64,000 nucleotides of DNA from Pirellulales bacterium (GTDB lineage: Bacteria; Planctomycetota; Planctomycetia; Pirellulales; JACPPG01), in contig DASXEJ010000019.1 of assembly GCA_036490175.1 (NCBI GenBank), forward strand, positions 1 to 64,000, in the 5' to 3' direction. Shown here in pieces: positions 319-46,779 of this stretch. Positions within the stretch are counted from its first letter, which is position 1. Each line of letters starts with the position of its first letter. The notes under the pieces are model-generated. The model saw nothing but the letters and a program-made list of their open reading frames with translations, was not told the origin of the DNA and did no database searches. The translations under genes were made by a program, and so were the position numbers.

Positions 319-552
319 TCAACTCATTTTTGCGGTATGGCGCGTTCCCAAGTAGGAGAGCCACGCAATGGGTTCTGCAAAAACTAGCATCAAGAGGCCG
401 CCCACTGCTTCGGTACCATAGCCCATTAGGTAGTTCATTGCGGTGTAACCCTCTGCAGGATTGAAAATCCCGTTCAAGCCGGGTAGGCCGTGGAGTATTC
501 CAATGATGCCAGCCGTTCTGACGATCAGTCCAAATATGTCACGAGCGTTCAT
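319..552 (-). CDS. Small membrane protein, 77 aa, function unknown
   Basis: The start is the ATG at 550-552, preceded by an ideal AGGAGG 6-7 bases upstream; the open frame continues to 774, but the extension is basic and lacks hydrophobic segments. The product has two hydrophobic stretches (about residues 5-20, 'IFGLIVRTAGIIGILHG', and 43-65, 'GGLLMLVFAEPIAWLSYLG'), suggesting a two-helix inner-membrane peptide. I do not recognise a named family. It sits just upstream of the kinase start on the same strand, with 63 bases between, so co-transcription is possible. Coding is supported mainly by the ribosome binding site and the hydrophobic pattern. Confidence 0.6.
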   Translation of the reverse strand: MNARDIFGLIVRTAGIIGILHGLPGLNGIFNPAEGYTAMNYLMGYGTEAVGGLLMLVFAEPIAWLSYLGTRHTAKMS

Positions 553-3233: not shown

Positions 3234-3623
3234 GGCGTGATCCCCAGTGTTGCTCGGTCAGTGACGAAACTCGCCGCGGCAGATGGTGCTGATTCGCCGC
3301 GGCGCGGCAAACTCGCGGAATGTCTCACTTCAAGGCGTGGTGTGATCGGATCGAGGGCCGGCGCAGGATTCCGTTCCGCTCGGATCTATGGAGGGAGGCT
3401 CATGAAGTGTCGGCTGCACAAAAGTCAGCCTGCATAGATGGGAGGTAGTTACATTGTCGCCGCAAAGTACCGACGCCACAAGCGGCAATCGTCGGGTTGG
3501 GCGAGCATCTTGCTGGATCGCCAAGCGATTAGGCCCCTTTTTTCCGGTTAAGGCATGCTGGCGCCTGCGCTGCACGCGGGCAGGACGTGCGCGGATTAGC
3601 TCGGCGGTGTGATCGAACGGGTG
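3234..3623. other. Intergenic region, nothing recognised
   Basis: About 390 bases with no supportable gene. Open frames exist on both strands, but none has a binding site, motif or plausible composition. It lies upstream of the 46-residue protein gene and downstream of the gene ending at 3624, and presumably holds the promoter of the former. Confidence 0.4.
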
Positions 3624-4982
3624 TCATTTACCATCAATCGGCCAGCGAAACAGCAGTTCTTGGTCTGCGCCGGTCTCGGCATCGATCTTCGAATTCACAT
3701 CGTGCCACTTGCTGTGGAGAAGCAGGCCACGATCATCGAGCTTGTAAACAAAGGGCTCGCCCGAGGTGGCATCGAGCGGCACTTCCGTAATATATGACGG
3801 AGCGAGATCGGACAACTGCTCGGGAAAGCGGCCTTGATCGAGTCGATAGCGGGCTAGCGCCAAGGCAAGAATGCCGACCTGATTCGCGGCCGTGGTGCGT
3901 GCTCCTTCGCGTACGTATTGCACCAAGTGGCCGAGGAATTCCGGCAGCAGGTCGAAATCGAACGTCGACCGCCTCGGTGGGTAGGTCGGATGCTTCACAT
4001 CTTCTGTCTGAGCTACTACCACGGCCCACGGCTGTGCGGCGACATCGATCAATCGGCGCATGGCGTCGAGGTAGCGGACGGCCAGTTGCTGTTTGGTCGC
4101 ATAGTGAATGGCCGTGGTCAGATTGCCGCCGATGCGGAGGTTGTAGCCCATCGTCGTGGGATCGTCTGCCGAGACAATGCCTGCCACGCGATCACCGAGC
4201 AGGCCGATCTGCAAGCCTGGGCGGATGTCGACCGCTGCCAGCGCGACTTGCAACCGCTCGAGGTCTTGGGCGCTGAAATTGACTTGCGGCAGCAGGTGCT
4301 TCAGATTCCTGACGAACGCGCGCTGATTCGACATTCGCACGAGTTGCGAGACGGCCAGCGGATTGGATTCCAGCGATTGGGCGATCGTCAGGGCATCACA
4401 CAGCGAGTCCGTCGCGCCGGTCGCATCGCCATGCCGCGCTCGCAGATACCCTTCGAGAAGTAAGCAACGGACGATGCCACGCAGCGGGCTAACCCAGGGG
4501 ACCGATCCACCGTAACCCTCTTCGGCGTGCATGGGAAAATTCGCGCGGCCCCCGAGCGCGGCCGCCTGATGCCAGCGGGCGAAATCTTCGCGGCAGTCCA
4601 GCAGCAATTGTTCGGCAATGGGCAGCGCTTCCCACTCCCCGGCAAGCTCAGGGAGTTGTTGGTCCGAGTCGAATTGCGGTAACAACCGCAGCTTATCTCG
4701 GTACGCCTTCATCCAGGTTCGTTCGTCGGCCTGGTAGAGCGCGAAGCAATCCTTGTCGGGCGGGATCCGCGGACTGTTGGCGTACAACTCGTCCGGGGTG
4801 ACCGGTTCGCCGCGTGCGCGAATGGCAGCGAGCGCGGCCTGCACCTCGCTCGATTGCCACCACCACCAGACAACTGGTACGGCGATCGTCGCGACGGCGA
4901 CCGCGGCGGCCACGATCAGCACGATCCGCTTATTACGCGATGCGGTGGGCGTTTGGTTGTGGTCCACTGCGCGACCGAACAT
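3624..4982 (-). CDS. Single-pass membrane protein with GspG-like C-terminal region
   Basis: A 452-residue planctomycete protein of unknown function. One transmembrane helix lies at residues 19-43 (IVLIVAAAVAVATIAVPVVW, followed by WWWW), and a long, mostly helical extracytoplasmic part follows. Near the C terminus, 'ILALALARYRLDQGRFPEQL' followed by 'VPLDATSGEPFVYKLDDRG' resembles the tail of type II secretion pseudopilins (LYRLDNGRYP...DPWG.PY.Y), a module seen in many planctomycete proteins. The protein at 13924-16128 has the same ending, so the two are paralogues in that region. The start at 4982 places the helix correctly. pcm lies 169 bases upstream on the same strand, so read-through is possible. 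I cannot assign a role. Confidence 0.72.
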   Translation of the reverse strand: MFGRAVDHNQTPTASRNKRIVLIVAAAVAVATIAVPVVWWWWQSSEVQAALAAIRARGEPVTPDELYANSPRIPPDKDCFALYQADERTWMKAYRDKLRLLPQFDSDQQLPELAGEWEALPIAEQLLLDCREDFARWHQAAALGGRANFPMHAEEGYGGSVPWVSPLRGIVRCLLLEGYLRARHGDATGATDSLCDALTIAQSLESNPLAVSQLVRMSNQRAFVRNLKHLLPQVNFSAQDLERLQVALAAVDIRPGLQIGLLGDRVAGIVSADDPTTMGYNLRIGGNLTTAIHYATKQQLAVRYLDAMRRLIDVAAQPWAVVVAQTEDVKHPTYPPRRSTFDFDLLPEFLGHLVQYVREGARTTAANQVGILALALARYRLDQGRFPEQLSDLAPSYITEVPLDATSGEPFVYKLDDRGLLLHSKWHDVNSKIDAETGADQELLFRWPIDGK

Positions 4983-5151
4983 AGGCCGGTTCCGGGGCGG
5001 CTTGCGCCAGAGAAAAATAGAGTCAGATTAATTGTCAACGATGGATTACGGCTGTGCCAGAGATTTCGCGTTCGCCACGGCCGAACGCGGGGAATCCCAC
5101 TACGATCACCACGCCAGTAACGTTGCCCAGTCCCGATCCGCGAGGGCTCTG

Positions 5152-5802
5152 TTAACTCTCATGCGTACCTCCACCAACCAACGGCACGAAGCGGCACTTT
5201 GTCAATTCCAGGCGGTGGTATGTCTCGCCGTGGCGCTCGATGCGCTCGAGCGTCTGGCCGCTGGGGCTACCGAGAGGTATGGCTAATCGGCCGCCCTCGG
5301 CCAGTTGATTCAGCAGGGCAGGGGGGCAGGTCGTGGTAGCCGCGGCAACCAGAATGCCCCGGTAGGGCGCCTCGTCTGGCCACCCCTGCGTGCCGTCGCC
5401 GACCAACAATTTGACGTTCTGATAGTTCAGCTCTGTTAGAACGCGGCCGGCCCGCGCCGAAAGTTCAGCATGTAATTCCAGCGAGATCACGCGTGCGGCC
5501 AACTCAGCCAGGATGGCGGTTTGATAACCGCTGCCGGTGCCGATATCGAGGACGGTTTCATGGCCCGCGAGTTCGAGCGCCTCGCTCATCATGGCCACGA
5601 TCAGGGGCTGGCTGATGGTTTGCTCGCAGTCGATGGCCAAAGCGCGATTGGCGTAGGCATCGGCCAGTCGCGCGACATTGACGAAGCGCTCGCGCGGCAC
5701 ACGGCTCATCGCGTCCAGCACACGGCGATCACGAATGCCGTGCCGCTCGAGGTCGCGGACCATGCGCAATCGCGCAAGATGGACTTCGCTGTCTGGAGGC
5801 AT
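5152..5802 (-). CDS. pcm: Protein-L-isoaspartate O-methyltransferase
   Basis: A 216-residue cytoplasmic repair enzyme that transfers a methyl group from S-adenosylmethionine to L-isoaspartyl residues in aged proteins. Family marks: 'VPRERFV' near residue 34, 'ISQPLIVAMM' near 62 (substrate region), the SAM-binding motif 'VLDIGTGSGYQTAILAELA' near 84, 'GDGTQGWP' near 135 and 'AIPLGSPSGQ' near 175. The length matches the family (205-220). recJ ends 97 bases upstream on the same strand, so the two may be co-transcribed. Confidence 0.96.
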   Translation of the reverse strand: MPPDSEVHLARLRMVRDLERHGIRDRRVLDAMSRVPRERFVNVARLADAYANRALAIDCEQTISQPLIVAMMSEALELAGHETVLDIGTGSGYQTAILAELAARVISLELHAELSARAGRVLTELNYQNVKLLVGDGTQGWPDEAPYRGILVAAATTTCPPALLNQLAEGGRLAIPLGSPSGQTLERIERHGETYHRLELTKCRFVPLVGGGTHES

Positions 5803-9218: not shown

Positions 9219-10355
9219 TTACGGTGTGGTAGGAGCAGGACGGACGGAGAAGTCAGAAAATATCTTGCAATTTGGTAGGGCCGCTTGAAGTAGCTTGACT
9301 TGCTCTTCGCTGACGGGCGTCCCTTGGACGTGAAGCTCGGTCAGGTTCTTAAGATTTGCGAGCGGCGTTAGGTCGCTGACTTGTGTGTCGTCGAGCCAAA
9401 GCCGTCCGAAGTTCGTGAGATTAGCTAGTGGTGAAAGGTCGCTGACCGCTGTTCCTTGGACGTGAAGGTCGCCGAGAAGTTTCAGCGCAGCTAGAGGAGC
9501 GAGGTCGGTAACTTTCGTCCGATCGGCGTACAAAACTTGCAAGTACGGAACGCTGGCAAGGGGAACGAGGTCGCTGATCGGCGTGTCCTCGCATTCTATC
9601 TGCCATACATTCTTGAGCCCGGCCAGCGGCGAGAGGTCGCTGACTTGCGTGCCACGGAACGAAAGGCGCTCTAAGTTCACGAGCCCGGCCAGCGCGGACA
9701 GGTTACTGACCGGCGTGTTGCCTAGGGTAAGGGTATCCAGGCTCTTGAGCCCTGAGAGCGGTGTGAGGTCGTGGACCGGGGATCTGTTGAGCTTAAGTGT
9801 GTCCAAGTGCGTTAGTCCGACGAGAGGCGATAGATCGCTGACGTGAGTGCCTTCGACGTCGAGCCTTTCTAGGAGGACCAGCGCGGCAACGGGCGTTAGG
9901 TCGCTCACTTGGCTATCGTTAAGAAACAGAGCAGATAGGTTCGTTAGTGCTGCCACCGACGATAGGTCGCTGACCTGCGTCTCCTCGACGCTGAGCATTT
10001 CGAGGTTTCTCAGCGCAGAGAGCGCCGAGAGGTCGCTCAATGAGGGATTTTGATTTGCAAGTACGGCTTCGACTCTTGGCCCGCAGATGGCCGACAACGT
10101 CCTACGCCACCAGGAAGGTTCTAACAATCTCCCTGACGAATCAAACGCAGAGGGCTGGTCAAACCGGCCGACGAATCGAATGTCGACGTTCTCGTATTTG
10201 GTTTTTAGCTGCTCAACAATCTGAAGTTCGTGTCGGGATTGGGCGCGTTCGTACGAGACCCATACCAAAGGCAGGCTTACGACGGTGATAAGAACGAACA
10301 GCGATCGCAGGCTGTAGGAAAACCAGCGGCGGGTGTGTTCGGGGACTGGGGACAT
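9219..10355 (-). CDS. Membrane-anchored leucine-rich-repeat protein
   Basis: The start at 10353-10355 gives 378 residues; the frame stays open to 10907, but that extension overlaps the vanZ-like gene in another frame. Residues 1-45 hold the anchor 'EHTRRWFSYSLRSLFVLITV'. Residues from about 115 to the end contain about ten 22-residue leucine-rich repeats of the internalin/SDS22 type, with the unit pattern NLexLxlxxTxVSDLsPLaxL, closed by 'LLQAALPNCKIF'. Such repeats form a curved binding surface, so protein-protein contact at the membrane or outside it is expected. The gene is packed between the VanZ gene (11 bases upstream) and the thioredoxin-like fusion (17 bases downstream). Confidence 0.87.
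   Translation of the reverse strand: MSPVPEHTRRWFSYSLRSLFVLITVVSLPLVWVSYERAQSRHELQIVEQLKTKYENVDIRFVGRFDQPSAFDSSGRLLEPSWWRRTLSAICGPRVEAVLANQNPSLSDLSALSALRNLEMLSVEETQVSDLSSVAALTNLSALFLNDSQVSDLTPVAALVLLERLDVEGTHVSDLSPLVGLTHLDTLKLNRSPVHDLTPLSGLKSLDTLTLGNTPVSNLSALAGLVNLERLSFRGTQVSDLSPLAGLKNVWQIECEDTPISDLVPLASVPYLQVLYADRTKVTDLAPLAALKLLGDLHVQGTAVSDLSPLANLTNFGRLWLDDTQVSDLTPLANLKNLTELHVQGTPVSEEQVKLLQAALPNCKIFSDFSVRPAPTTP
9288..10014 (-). repeat. Tandem 66-bp repeats encoding leucine-rich repeats
   Basis: About eleven consecutive units of 66 bases, each encoding one 22-residue leucine-rich repeat; the last is a degenerate cap. The phrase corresponding to V-S-D-L-[ST]-P-L-A recurs with near-identical DNA in many units. 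Limits are approximate. The repeats suggest growth and shrinkage by recombination. Confidence 0.75.
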
Positions 10356-37621: not shown

Positions 37622-38800
37622 TTATTGACGCGAGAAGAGCACCTTCAGCAATTGCTCCTTGAGCGATGCGCTGGCATCGATCACGGCCTGGAATTCATCC
37701 TTGTTTAGCGTGCAGAGCGTAAGCTCCTCGCGGGCCGTGACCGTGGCGTTGCGCGGCGCGCCGCTGAGCAAGGCCGCTTCACCAAAGAAATCTCCTTGAT
37801 CGAGCGTGGCCAGCGTGCGGCTGTGTTGCGATCCATCGGTGGCGGTGACCGTGGCGGTACCGGAGCGGATCAAATAGAACTTGTCCCCCGGATCACCTTG
37901 ACGCACGATGACGGTGCCGGCCGGATGCGTTTCGAGCTTCATCTTGTCGGCGACTTCGGTCAACGTGCGCGGAGTCAACGAGGCGAATAGCGACGATTTG
38001 CGCAAGAACTCGCAGATCACCGCGGCCTCGCTCACCACGACGTCCGAAATCACGCGGCCGTCGACCATGTTCACGATACGGTCGGCCACGTCGAGGATGC
38101 GGTTGTCGTGCGTCACGATCAAAATCGTGGCCAACTCTTCCTTGGCGATTTTCTTGAGCAACTCGACCACGTCGCGTCCCGATTGCTTGTCGAGCGCGGC
38201 CGTCGGCTCGTCGGCCAGAATCAGTTTCGGGTGGTTCGCCAGGGCGCGGGCGATCGCGACCCGCTGTCGTTGACCACCGGAAAGCGACTCGGGCTTATAG
38301 TCCAGGCGGTGCCCCAGTCCCAGCGCCTGCAGCAGCTCGGCGGCCCGCTCTTCGGACTCTTCGCGGGCGAGCGACTTTAGCTCCAAAGCCATGCGCACAT
38401 TTTGACGAGCCGTGAGCGATTCAAATAAATTATGAGCTTGAAAGATGAAGCCGATATCGCGGCGCACTTCGGCCAACGCGCGGTCGTCGAGGCCGGCCAA
38501 CTCGTTGCCCATCACCTGTACGCTGCCATCTTGCACGGTGCGCAGCGCGCCGACCAGCGTCAGCAGCGTCGTTTTGCCCGAGCCCGACGGGCCCGTCATG
38601 ATCACGATCTCGCCACGGGACAGTTCCAGGTCGTTGTCGTAAAGGACTTGTTTGCGCAGCTCGCCGGAACCGTAGGTGTGATTCAGATCCTCGATCCGCA
38701 CGCACAAGTTGTTGTCGCTATCCGATCCGCGCAGAGCGGGATGGACCCGCGTGGCGGATCGCAGCGGCTGGCCGTTTTGTTTCTTGCGGCGGAATCGCAT
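37622..38800 (-). CDS. devA: DevA-type ABC transporter ATPase fused to a cyclic-nucleotide-binding domain
   Basis: 392 residues. Residues 35-255 are the ATPase: Walker A 'MTGPSGSGKTTLLTLVGALR', Q-loop 'GFIFQAHNLFES', signature 'LSGGQRQRVAIARALANHPK', Walker B 'LILADEPTAALD' and H-loop 'LIVTHDN'. Residues about 262-392 are a cNMP-binding (CRP-like) domain: 'LRKSSLFASLTPRTLTEVAD', 'GTVIVRQGDPGDKFYLIRSG' and 'LDQGDFFGEAALLSGAPRNA', where the Glu and Arg of the phosphate cassette (FGEAALL...R) are present. Nucleotide control of export, or a retained sensor, is suggested. It is the last gene of the operon that starts at 42548. Confidence 0.93.
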   Translation of the reverse strand: MRFRRKKQNGQPLRSATRVHPALRGSDSDNNLCVRIEDLNHTYGSGELRKQVLYDNDLELSRGEIVIMTGPSGSGKTTLLTLVGALRTVQDGSVQVMGNELAGLDDRALAEVRRDIGFIFQAHNLFESLTARQNVRMALELKSLAREESEERAAELLQALGLGHRLDYKPESLSGGQRQRVAIARALANHPKLILADEPTAALDKQSGRDVVELLKKIAKEELATILIVTHDNRILDVADRIVNMVDGRVISDVVVSEAAVICEFLRKSSLFASLTPRTLTEVADKMKLETHPAGTVIVRQGDPGDKFYLIRSGTATVTATDGSQHSRTLATLDQGDFFGEAALLSGAPRNATVTAREELTLCTLNKDEFQAVIDASASLKEQLLKVLFSRQ

Positions 38801-43032: not shown

Positions 43033-43137
43033 TCACTGTCTCGGTGAGCAATCATCACGCTGGTGAAACGGCATCTAACTTGTTTTCTTATATATGTTTA
43101 GATGACGCGCGCTAAAGTCGTATCACCAGCCTGGTGA
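43033..43137. promoter_or_regulatory. Three related dyads, likely upstream activator sites
   Basis: Sites: TCACTGTCTCGGTGA (43033-43047), TCATCACGCTGGTGA (43052-43066) and TCACCAGCCTGGTGA (43123-43137). The third is a perfect 7-1-7 palindrome; site 2 matches it at 12 of 15 positions and site 1 at 10. All keep TCA at one end and GGTGA at the other. Their centres are about 190, 171 and 100 bases before the -24 element, the normal range for enhancer sites of NtrC-type activators. The activator is not identified here. Confidence 0.6.
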
Positions 43138-43228
43138 ATCGTGCGGAACAGGAGGCATGGCGCGATTGGCGCTGTAAGTCCTTTCGTTCGGGAGGGATCG
43201 GCCGCACAGATTGCCCGTCTTCTCATGC

Positions 43229-43244
43229 TGGCACGCCGCTTGCT
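43229..43244 (+). promoter_or_regulatory. Sigma-54 (RpoN) promoter
   Basis: TGGCACG-CCGC-TTGCT matches the -24/-12 consensus (YTGGCACG-N4-TTGCW) at every defined position, including the preceding C and the following T-rich bases. It points right, toward the receiver-like gene whose start is 214 bases downstream. The dyads at 43033-43137 are placed as enhancers. This is the clearest promoter in the window. Confidence 0.8.
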
Positions 43245-43457
43245 TTTAGAAACGCCGGTCCAGATCAGGCAACCTCGGTAGTGGTGCTTGTTCTGGCAGT
43301 TTGCATGGTCGAGTCACGGAGGCGGCTTTCGACGTGCAGGCTGGGGGTGTCATGACCCTTTCGGAGTCACAGCAGGGAGGCTCAGCAACTGCGTAACCGG
43401 TGCCGACCGGATCGCGGGTTGTCGATCTAAATCCACTCGGCTGAGTACGACACCAAG

Positions 43458-43967
43458 ATGCAACCTTATAGAGACGCCATTATCGCACCTGACAAGGTGC
43501 GAACCACAGTGGCAGTGCGTGCAATTGAGTCTGTCGAATGCCTGGTCGTCGCCACCGATGAGGGGCGACGCGAAAACCTGGGGTTCGTTGCGCGCGAAGG
43601 AGGATGGAACGTCACGCTCTGTCGCGAGCCTGCCGAGGCAATTGCCCAGGCGCGCCAGCGGCTGCTGCAAATGGCCATTGTGGACCTGAGTGGTTCAGTC
43701 GCCAGCGATTCGGCAAGTTACCGCTTTCTGGTTGAGCAGTTGGCATGCACCAGCCGCATGCTGCTTCTGGTTTGCGGCAATGTCGACGACACCCGTGAAG
43801 AAGTTTGGGCACGACATCTGGGCGTATGGATGTACTTGCCAGGCGCGATCGACGGAGCGGATTTGGTCGGCCTGTGCGTGGCAGCGAGAGAGACGGTCGA
43901 ACGTATGTCCGCCCTTAACCGGCAGCGGGCGCTGTCCGTAGACCGCAAGACGAATCAATCGAGATGA
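43458..43967 (+). CDS. Degenerate receiver-like (CheY-like) protein
   Basis: 169 residues. Residues about 23-140 have the secondary-structure rhythm of a response-regulator receiver: 'VECLVVATDEGRRENLGFVA' (beta1-alpha1), 'REGGWNVTLCREPAEAIAQA' (beta2-alpha2), 'RLLQMAIVDLSG' (beta3), 'RMLLLVCGNVD' (beta4) and 'WMYLPGAIDGADLVGLCVAA' (beta5-alpha5). The acidic pair after beta1 is replaced by T-D-E, beta3 keeps one Asp ('IVDLSG'), and the switch Lys after beta5 is missing (YLPGA). Phosphorylation is therefore doubtful. No output domain is fused. It is the first gene after the sigma-54 promoter. The ATG at 43458 has only a weak binding site. Confidence 0.72.
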   Translation: MQPYRDAIIAPDKVRTTVAVRAIESVECLVVATDEGRRENLGFVAREGGWNVTLCREPAEAIAQARQRLLQMAIVDLSGSVASDSASYRFLVEQLACTSRMLLLVCGNVDDTREEVWARHLGVWMYLPGAIDGADLVGLCVAARETVERMSALNRQRALSVDRKTNQSR

Positions 43968-44085: not shown

Positions 44086-44265
44086 ATGCAGTCCTACAGC
44101 AACGCGACCCCGGATTACAGCGCCGACAACGAGTTCGATCATGGACGCCGTAGCGCAGACAAATCGCCGTCGCGTACCCGCCGCTCGACGGCCCGACGTT
44201 TGGTGACGAAGTCCTCGTCGTTCAACGGTATGCACCGTCGCCGTAATAAGCATTGGAACTGGTAA
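44086..44265 (+). CDS. 59-residue basic protein ending HRRRNKHWNW
   Basis: Start ATG at 44086 with AAAGGAAA upstream; the open frame from 43993 is too long by 31 codons and crosses the hairpins. The N-terminal third is polar ('MQSYSNATPDYSADNEFDHG'), the rest strongly basic (about 14 Arg/Lys) and ends 'FNGMHRRRNKHWNW'. I recall similar tiny proteins with 'NGxHRRRNKxW' ends in planctomycetes. Such composition suggests RNA or DNA binding. It lies 118 bases after the receiver gene, on the same strand, possibly under the same sigma-54 promoter. Confidence 0.72.
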   Translation: MQSYSNATPDYSADNEFDHGRRSADKSPSRTRRSTARRLVTKSSSFNGMHRRRNKHWNW

Positions 44266-44523: not shown

Positions 44524-46779
44524 CTATTTTGCCGCTCGGTCGAGGAAGGCGCGAAAATCTTGCAATGCGCCCCTATCCAGCCCCTCGGCCGGATGTTCCA
44601 GCAACCAATCGGCGTCTGCTACGGCGCCAGCACGGTCTCCGTTCTGCGAGCGGAGCATGGCGCGGTCGAATCGCGCCCGGTGGGCCTCGGGTGAGATGGC
44701 CAACAAGGCATCCAGATAGCGCAGCACGGCGCGGTTGTCGCCGCTCATGCCGGCCACTTCTTTCAGGTTGTAGAGGATCCGCACCACGATCGCGCGCTTG
44801 GTCGTCGCCTTTTGTTGCTCTTCGGTTAGCGGCGCACGCGTGGCGGCCAATACCCGCCGGCCGGCTTCCTCTGGACTGACCACCTGGCCGCCATCGAAGA
44901 CGTCGATCAGCCGACTTTCGCCGCCAGTTGGTACATACCGCACGACGAAATGACCGGGCAGGCCGACTCCTTCGACGTGCAACGACAAACGGCGGGCCAA
45001 CTCCATGTAGACGATCGACAACGTGATAGGTAACCCTTCGCGATCGTCCAAAACTTCGTTGACGTAGCTGTTCGCACGGTGGTAGTAGTCACCGCGACTG
45101 CCGTGGAAGCCGCTTTCGTCGAAGAAAAACTTGTTCAGCGCGGAAAAACGGGCGGCTTCGTCTGGCATCTCTCCCGATTTCGCCGTAACGTCAGCAGCCA
45201 TGCGATCGAGTTGACGACGATAGCTCTCAACATCGATCTCGTCGTTGTCCAATCGCGCGATTGCCAATGCCGCGGCGAGCAGGTCGATCGATTCTTCTGG
45301 TTGGTCAAGCACCTTGAGCAATTCGGCATGGGCATGCACCTGGCGTAGCGAATCGCTCAGGCGGCGCAGCTGCTCGGCCTGATGCGACAACGCCTCGGCG
45401 CGATCCGTCAGCGCCGCGGTTGTCACCGCCGAGTTTTCAGCCAGCTGTTCGGCCAAGGCGATGCCAGGATGGCTATCGGCCGGCATCTCGTCGAGCAGTC
45501 GATCGATGCGTGCCACGGCTTCGGCCGAAGGTGCCGGTGCCGTTAGTTCCCGGCCCACGCGAAAACCCTTGAACTCGGCATGCGTCTCGCGAAATTTGGC
45601 AAAACCGACTTTGCCCGTGGTTGCTGTCGAGACGTGGGTCGTGATCACTTCGTGACCATTGACGCGGCAGACGATCCGTTGCGGCTCGACGCGCACGTGC
45701 AGCGTGTTCCACTCGCCCGCCTTATAGAACGGGCTTGCTTGTTGCGCGAGGATGGTCCAATTCAACACGTCCGGACCGTCGAAACGCGTCAGCCGCATGG
45801 TGCCGGCCGTGGGATAGAAGCCGTAGTGCTTGTCGCCGCCATCGGCGCCGAAAACCAATCCGGCGGCGCCGGCCTCGTCGTCGAGCCGTACGGTCGCGGT
45901 CAGTTCGAAAGGAACATCCGGAGGGGCCTGCGATGACAAGCAAAGCGAGCGACCGCCGAATCCGTCTCCTTCGCCGTCGACCAACACGCGGGCTCCGCGT
46001 GCGTGCCAGTTGGCGCCGAATACCGGCGTCCATTCGGCCGCGTCGAGGGCGCCTTGCTTCACCCAGCGATCGATGGGCACCGGGTTGGGACGCGCCAAAA
46101 GGGGCTTCAGGTCGTTGATGCCGACGGCGAAACCCAGATTGTTGGTTACCAGCGACTTCAGCGTCAGAATGCCGCCGACGTGACCTTGCATATCGACCAA
46201 GGGACCGCCGCTGTTGCCCGGCTCGACGGCGATGGCTAGCTGAATCATTTTTCGGCCGTCGATCTCGCGCTGCCCTGATACGACTCCCGCCACAACGCTG
46301 TGTCGCAGCCCCATGGGATTGCCAAGTGCGACGACAGCTTGTCCGGGGCGCAAAAATTCGGAATCCGCCAGCTTTAGCGGCGTCAGTCCTGTTGCGTCGA
46401 CCCGCAGAATGGCCAGATCGAGGAAGCGATCCGATGCATGTACGCTCGTTACTTCGTGCCGCTTGCCATCAGCCATTTGCACCGTGATCGGCCGACCTTC
46501 GCCGATGACGTGCAGATTTGTGGCGATCAATCCGTCGGCCGACACGACAAAGCCCGAGCCCAAACCATGCTTGCGGCCGTCACGGCCACCAACGGTGATC
46601 ACGGCCAGCGAGGGCCGAGCGCGCTGATAGACGTCCTCGACGGACTTGCGCGTGCCAGTCTCGCGCTCGCTAGTGGCCTCGGGTTTTGCTTCGTCGGCGA
46701 ATATGCCGGCCGGCGCGAAGCTCGCAATGCACAGCGCCAACATGGAAAAAACTGTTACGCGCTGCGACGCAATGGACAT
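44524..46779 (-). CDS. Fusion: HtrA-like protease + DUF1080-like lectin domain + SirB1 transglutaminase-like domain
   Basis: 751 residues. Signal peptide at 1-28. Residues about 50-235 are a trypsin-like domain: His 'IATNLHVIGEG', Asp 'FLDLAILRVD' and Ser 'EPGNSGGPLVDMQG', all present. Residues about 260-410 form a jelly-roll of the DUF1080/laminin-G kind ('KHYGFYPTAGTMRLTRFDGP', 'GEWNTLHVRVEPQRIVCRVN', 'GKVGFAKFRETHAEFKGFRV'). Residues about 415-500 are helical. Residues about 545-685 match the SirB1/transglutaminase-like core ('REGLPITLSIVYMELARRLS', 'VEGVGLPGHFVVRYV'), whose usual Cys is not evident, followed by TPR-like helices. It may bind carbohydrate or peptidoglycan and cut partners in the envelope. 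Fusion of the three is unusual. Confidence 0.8.
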   Translation of the reverse strand: MSIASQRVTVFSMLALCIASFAPAGIFADEAKPEATSERETGTRKSVEDVYQRARPSLAVITVGGRDGRKHGLGSGFVVSADGLIATNLHVIGEGRPITVQMADGKRHEVTSVHASDRFLDLAILRVDATGLTPLKLADSEFLRPGQAVVALGNPMGLRHSVVAGVVSGQREIDGRKMIQLAIAVEPGNSGGPLVDMQGHVGGILTLKSLVTNNLGFAVGINDLKPLLARPNPVPIDRWVKQGALDAAEWTPVFGANWHARGARVLVDGEGDGFGGRSLCLSSQAPPDVPFELTATVRLDDEAGAAGLVFGADGGDKHYGFYPTAGTMRLTRFDGPDVLNWTILAQQASPFYKAGEWNTLHVRVEPQRIVCRVNGHEVITTHVSTATTGKVGFAKFRETHAEFKGFRVGRELTAPAPSAEAVARIDRLLDEMPADSHPGIALAEQLAENSAVTTAALTDRAEALSHQAEQLRRLSDSLRQVHAHAELLKVLDQPEESIDLLAAALAIARLDNDEIDVESYRRQLDRMAADVTAKSGEMPDEAARFSALNKFFFDESGFHGSRGDYYHRANSYVNEVLDDREGLPITLSIVYMELARRLSLHVEGVGLPGHFVVRYVPTGGESRLIDVFDGGQVVSPEEAGRRVLAATRAPLTEEQQKATTKRAIVVRILYNLKEVAGMSGDNRAVLRYLDALLAISPEAHRARFDRAMLRSQNGDRAGAVADADWLLEHPAEGLDRGALQDFRAFLDRAAK

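Follow-up and report, generated by a model that had tools for sequence, protein, structure and literature searches.

A predicted sigma-54-dependent module with conserved enhancer dyads and a stand-alone receiver-like protein in the order Pirellulales

Introduction

In VpsR and FleQ, a degenerate N-terminal receiver is linked to a sigma-54-type AAA+ activator. The module described here resembles both systems in its components, but its receiver is a separate protein. PspF, which is controlled in trans by PspA, provides a model for an activator regulated by a partner protein.

A second point of comparison is the architecture of the activator. PspF-type (type Ic) enhancer-binding proteins are composed of AAA+ and HTH_8 domains without a signal domain (Francke 2011, PMC3162934). 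The candidate activator of the Pirellulales module is likewise composed of AAA+ and HTH_8 domains and lacks a signal domain; in contrast to PspF, it has different targets and scores 240.2 versus 443.6 bits on TIGR02974.

PrsR/PrsK governs a sigma-54 regulon of proteobacterial PEP-CTERM genes and has been reported only in Proteobacteria; its motif comprises 17 nt, ends in TTTACA and lies about 63 nt before the promoter (Haft 2006, PMC1569441). The module in Pirellulales shares with it the combination of sigma-54 promoters and an upstream activator motif, as well as a tie to PEP-CTERM genes. However, the PrsR activator has a receiver domain and many PEP-CTERM targets per genome, whereas the candidate Pirellulales activator is bare and has one or two predicted targets, and the PrsR motif differs from the TCACC-N5-GGTGA dyads of the Pirellulales module. 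Our literature search, which had most subscription papers outside its reach, found no paper describing this module and no study of sigma-54 regulation in Pirellulales, and little published on the subject for planctomycetes.

Results

Promoter and leader

The window, the whole stretch of 64,000 nucleotides analysed here, contains a predicted sigma-54 promoter followed by the genes of a receiver-like protein and a small basic protein. The promoter region comprises the following features, in window coordinates:

43033-43047, no strand: dyad D1, TCACTGTCTCGGTGA, 196 bp before the -24 element; putative distal activator-binding half of the enhancer
43052-43066, no strand: dyad D2, TCATCACGCTGGTGA, 177 bp before the -24 element; its position in the alignment is kept by congeners G001 and G003
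43123-43137, no strand: dyad D3, TCACCAGCCTGGTGA, 106 bp before the -24 element; putative proximal activator site
43229-43244, + strand: sigma-54 (-24/-12) promoter, TGGCACGCCGCTTGCT; matches the consensus and is conserved in congeners and in the order, with an RpoN gene in the genome
43257-43457, + strand: predicted untranslated leader of about 200 nt, its start placed from the -12 element

The initial annotation had matched TGGCACG-N4-TTGCT at 43229-43244 to the RpoN consensus. The fit to TGGCACG-N4-TTGCW (-24 GG / -12 GC element) is indeed exact, and the string is the sole match within the window, where 0.04 would be expected by chance. The -24/-12 element is kept in G001 and G003 and is conserved across the order. 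Promoters were scored with a weight matrix based on the published consensus, and the conclusion is independent of the details of the matrix. The genome encodes RpoN itself (PF04552, 4.6e-62).

The distance from the -12 element to the ATG is 213 nt at the window locus and 221 nt at a paralogous locus of the same genome (G000:C88). A search of the predicted leader against Rfam returned no match. Within this leader, GCAGGGAGGCT at 43372-43382 is invariant in three congeners, and a possible hairpin lies 3' of it in two of the three.

Dyads upstream of the promoter

Three 15-base dyads with TCA...GGTGA ends had been noted upstream of the promoter; their first bases lie 196, 177 and 106 bp ahead of the -24 element, and they share the form TCACC-N5-GGTGA. 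D3 alone is a perfect palindrome, its central base excepted, and its TCACCA-N3-TGGTGA is invariant in G000, G001 and G003. D1 and D2 are spaced by 19 bp in the window, as in relatives.

Across 30 receiver loci, corrected for orientation and with at most one mismatch allowed, we counted 50 dyads upstream of the gene, compared with 1 downstream and 1.0 in shuffled sequence, and the excess is specific to the 5-bp gap. Promoters were called at 36 named GTDB loci; of the dyads found there, 67 lie 100-240 bp and 1 lies 240-500 bp upstream of the promoter. Dyads 60-260 bp upstream had helped to select the promoter, which somewhat favours this contrast; the 50-versus-1 count is free of such a bias.

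The geometry is usually constant, with D1 and D2 19-20 bp apart and D2 and D3 71 bp apart, or 82-84 bp in one subgroup. In most loci, the start of D3 precedes the -24 element by 105-119 bp, with a few loci deviating. The distances between D3 and the promoter cluster near 106, 116 and 127 bp, recurring roughly every 11 bp (p about 0.001 when compared with uniform distances, relatedness ignored). The initial annotation had proposed comparing this promoter in related planctomycetes, and promoter and dyads are kept both in the two congeners and order-wide. Comparison of these sequences thus shows the predicted promoter and dyads to be conserved throughout the order, with usually fixed spacing and helical phasing.

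A second dyad-bearing locus in the genome

The perfect dyad TCACCA-N3-TGGTGA occurs at 2 places in the 7.58-Mb genome and at 0 in the reversed control, while the D1-D2 pair occurs at 1 place; the regulon was sought by pattern searches, which may be incomplete. Each copy lies ahead of a sigma-54 promoter, and the two predicted transcripts carry paralogous genes for small basic proteins. The second copy, at G000:C88, falls between two genes that we take, by eye, to be pyrE and yraN; downstream of it follow a strict sigma-54 site and the gene for a 59-aa paralog of the small basic protein. In G001, G003 and G004, a counterpart of this copy is conserved. Such dyads accompany none of the remaining five strict sigma-54 sites of the genome (0/5). 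Of the proposed search for further dyads and for NtrC-type activators next to them, the first part yielded this locus, but the candidate activator gene is unlinked to the dyads in this genome, and its product is no classical receiver-bearing NtrC.

A non-coding RNA had been suspected at G000:C88, where no long open reading frame was listed, and was ruled out by the 59-aa paralog in the alignment. A second sigma-54-like site, TGGCACCGCACTTGCA, is found upstream of the paralog's dyads (L074, G000:C88:43500-51500, positions 4523-4538, minus strand). It is conserved in four congeners and has no open reading frame directly behind it, and possibly drives a sigma-54-dependent RNA.

Candidate activator

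In G036 and G047, the gene of a sigma-54 activator adjoins the dyad-bearing loci, and its ortholog is present in the genome of the window:

G000:C238:47390-48286, outside the window: candidate activator (enhancer-binding protein), ortholog of the gene beside the G036 and G047 dyad loci

Orthologs are 62-75% identical and are found in 43 of the 98 genomes of the main sample (the window's own genome, the same genus and the order; many are draft MAGs), with one copy in most. The protein of 331 residues contains a sigma-54 AAA+ domain from residue 26 onwards (PF00158, 1.3e-66) and a Fis-type helix-turn-helix (HTH_8, 1e-8). A domain search found no regulatory domain in it, nor in nearly all of its orthologs, which is the architecture of the PspF type (Ic). 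On NCBIfam equivalogs, among them PspF and PEP_resp_reg (TIGR02915; 258.5 versus 502.6 bits), it always scores well short of the cut-off. The candidate, which is the likely activator of the module, is an enhancer-binding protein without a sensing domain of its own.

Across the 98 genomes, 39 have both the activator and the receiver gene, 51 have neither and 8 are discordant, relatedness being ignored and the weak receiver matches of G030 and G079 left out of the count. The activator gene is directly upstream of the receiver locus, on the same strand, at 20 of the 38 loci examined; in the window's genome, the two are unlinked. The genome comparison shows that the candidate activator gene is co-inherited with the receiver gene and frequently adjacent to it. 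Dyads accompany 34 of 38 receiver loci in genomes with the activator, compared with 1 of 4 loci in genomes without it. The exceptions are four dyad-less loci in activator genomes and G029 (a MAG, 92% complete), where dyads are present and the activator was not found.

Receiver and activator matches fall in one open reading frame of G030, where the receiver match is weak (E 2.6e-4); this protein looks like an ordinary response-regulator activator and is not taken as support for a fusion. In G043, which has the activator and no receiver match, about 10 dyads are clustered near a contig end (L111, G043:C129:1-6000, positions 405-611) upstream of a sigma-54 site (351-366, minus strand). One receiver locus, in G025 (L271, G025:C67:4000-21000, position 9545), has neither TCACC-N5-GGTGA dyads nor the activator. 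A different palindrome, GGTAGAGCGCCTCTACC, lies there upstream of a strong sigma-54 site and adjoins a PEP-CTERM gene; this palindrome, GGTAGAG-N3-CTCTACC, was not found in the relative G049.

Receiver-like protein

The first gene behind the promoter encodes a protein with homologs in 45 of the 98 genomes:

43458-43967, + strand: receiver-like protein, 169 aa, with a long C-terminal helix

AlphaFold2 on 47 sequences predicts a receiver fold (mean pLDDT 88.8) followed by a C-terminal helix of 35 residues. The model has the alternating five-stranded alpha/beta fold of the CheY type, and its best matches among solved structures include the receivers of HupR, PleD, NtrC1 and NtrX; the HupR receiver superposes with Z 17.8 over 136 residues and an rmsd of 1.8. 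Sequence profile matches to the PDB reach 1e-4.

With residue equivalence to CheY read from the alignment of the beta-strands, D12/D13 correspond to A32/T33 and K109 to P128, in agreement with the earlier remark that the paired acidic residues and the switch Lys are missing. The phospho-acceptor Asp of beta3, unmentioned there, is kept as D76. In the family, it is retained in 45/47 members, the first position of the acidic pair is Ser in 39/47 and the second varies, the Thr position is Cys, and the switch Lys is replaced by Pro in 43/47. Of the residues of a canonical phospho-receiver (acidic pair, phospho-Asp, Thr/Ser and switch Lys), only the phospho-Asp remains.

The nearest Pfam family is VpsR (PF20161), matched at E<=0.1 by 14 of the 47 members (best 3.5e-6); the window's protein scores 12.4 bits against a cut-off of 23.7. 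Response_reg is matched by a single member. The VpsR matches, set against that single Response_reg match, suggest that the protein may be the detached regulatory domain of a VpsR-type activator.

Small basic protein and PEP-CTERM proteins

The tiny basic protein previously noted behind the receiver gene is confirmed:

44086-44265, + strand: small basic protein, 59 aa, pI 11.4, C-terminal NGMHRRRNKHWNW, predicted unfolded

Its C-terminus reads NG(I/M/L)HRRRNK(R/H)xxW across the family. AlphaFold2 gives no confident structure (pLDDT 61), and a Pfam search with the protein returned no family. Matches, some of them weak, are found in 49 of the 98 genomes and at 40 of 42 reference loci. The small-protein gene follows the receiver gene, and the two are conserved as a pair; G001 and G003 keep both of them. 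At one receiver locus of G029 (L114, G029:C91:8000-15000, positions 3292-5695) there are three genes for small basic proteins, and G012 (L113), of the same family, also has three.

At 11 loci, an in-frame fusion joins the small protein to the N-terminal end of a PEP-CTERM protein; Pfam confirmed one of these fusions (FGE-sulfatase plus PEP-CTERM). PEP-CTERM open reading frames lie near the receiver gene on the same strand at 13 of 42 loci, compared with about 2 expected, a rough figure derived from about 135 PEP-CTERM matches per 7.6 Mb in which the two counts used different detectors. No PEP-CTERM gene was found at the receiver locus in the window's genus. The window's genome has at least 135 PEP-CTERM matches, and with the perfect dyad at 2 places, dyads before most PEP-CTERM genes, as in a PrsR regulon, are not observed. 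Exact co-occurrence with exosortase, which is present in 82 of the 98 genomes, was not found either.

Distribution

Among 392 genomes spread evenly over the phylum, the receiver family was found in the window's own genome, together with one weak match (9.7e-9). The records behind the 53 named loci are all labelled as planctomycete, several of them as Pirellulales or as cultured Pirellulales genera. Among the cultured carriers of the module are Botrimarina hoheduenensis (L176) and Lacipirellula limnantheis (L197). The family seems to be confined largely to the order Pirellulales.

Discussion

Proposed mechanism and alternatives

The undescribed sigma-54-regulated module proposed in the initial annotation is supported by the conserved promoter, dyads and gene pair and by a co-occurring candidate activator. 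We consider it probable that a dedicated activator acting on the dyads drives the sigma-54 operon of the receiver-like and small basic proteins. The activator, consisting of AAA+ (GAFTGA) and Fis-type HTH domains only, would bind the three TCACC-N5-GGTGA dyads and, by looping, contact the RNA polymerase-sigma-54 complex at 43229-43244. ATP hydrolysis by the activator would then open the promoter of the operon. The paralogous small-protein gene at G000:C88 would be a second target of the same activator.

The role of the receiver-like protein is less certain. It may represent a VpsR-type regulatory domain that has become detached and tunes the activator by binding it in trans, as feedback or in response to a ligand, a reading to which we give nearly even chances. 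Nearly even chances also apply to the alternative that it is an output protein with no action on the activator, for example one that scaffolds or binds the small protein or the PEP-CTERM machinery. The face that is most conserved in it, E-x-W-x-R-x-x-G-x-W-x-Y-L-P, would allow binding to any partner, and its gene adjoins the small-protein gene in nearly all loci. Furthermore, the activator occurs without the receiver in G004, G043 and G092 (and in G002, where a contig end truncates the locus); the receiver is therefore not strictly required. Against an output role stand the activator's lack of any regulatory domain, a fold and C-terminal helix as in the receivers of sigma-54 activators, and the VpsR matches.

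If the protein does act on the activator, the module could be a naturally split VpsR-like sigma-54 activator, in which the receiver, encoded in the target operon, controls in trans an activator made up of AAA+ and HTH domains alone; we put this forward tentatively. More doubtful still, although possible, is that the small protein, itself unfolded, interacts with nucleic acid or membranes and serves as a partner of a PEP-CTERM surface protein. If the split-activator reading is true, the system would act throughout the order as the switch of a basic, unfolded small protein that feeds the PEP-CTERM surface system.

A different regulator, such as an NtrC-type response regulator or a repressor, could bind the dyads of a real sigma-54 promoter while the co-occurring activator serves other targets. 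The genome has about 20 matches to PF00158 among its enhancer-binding proteins, and the dyad core resembles other Fis-type HTH sites. However, presence, adjacency and the conservation of the recognition helix point to one activator: LLG(V/I)H(A/P)NT(L/M)TR is near-invariant in the orthologs and unlike the helices of six other activators of the genome. We therefore regard another regulator as improbable, and direct binding of the dyads by the candidate activator, as predicted from these sequence features, as very likely.

A chance sigma-54-like string near unrelated dyads can be set aside, since sequence, order and spacing are conserved across Pirellulales, although TGGCAYG-N4-TTGCW has 7 matches genome-wide versus 5 for the reversed control, so that the match alone is unexceptional, near chance, and it is the conservation that counts.

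The module offers a testable circuit across many families of one order, comprising a promoter, three enhancer sites of usually fixed geometry, an activator and its targets. It contains two undescribed protein families and may be an example, found in nature, of a sigma-54 activator whose receiver domain has become detached. It also suggests that sigma-54 and PEP-CTERM genes are linked in planctomycetes in a manner unrelated to PrsR.

Other genes in the window

On the minus strand at 37622-38800, the window encodes an ABC ATPase of the DevA/LolD type, located in a DevBCA-like exporter operon, which by eye seems to carry a C-terminal cyclic-nucleotide-binding domain. Also on the minus strand, at 44524-46779, a single protein combines trypsin-like protease, 3-keto-disaccharide hydrolase-like, transglutaminase-like and TPR regions.
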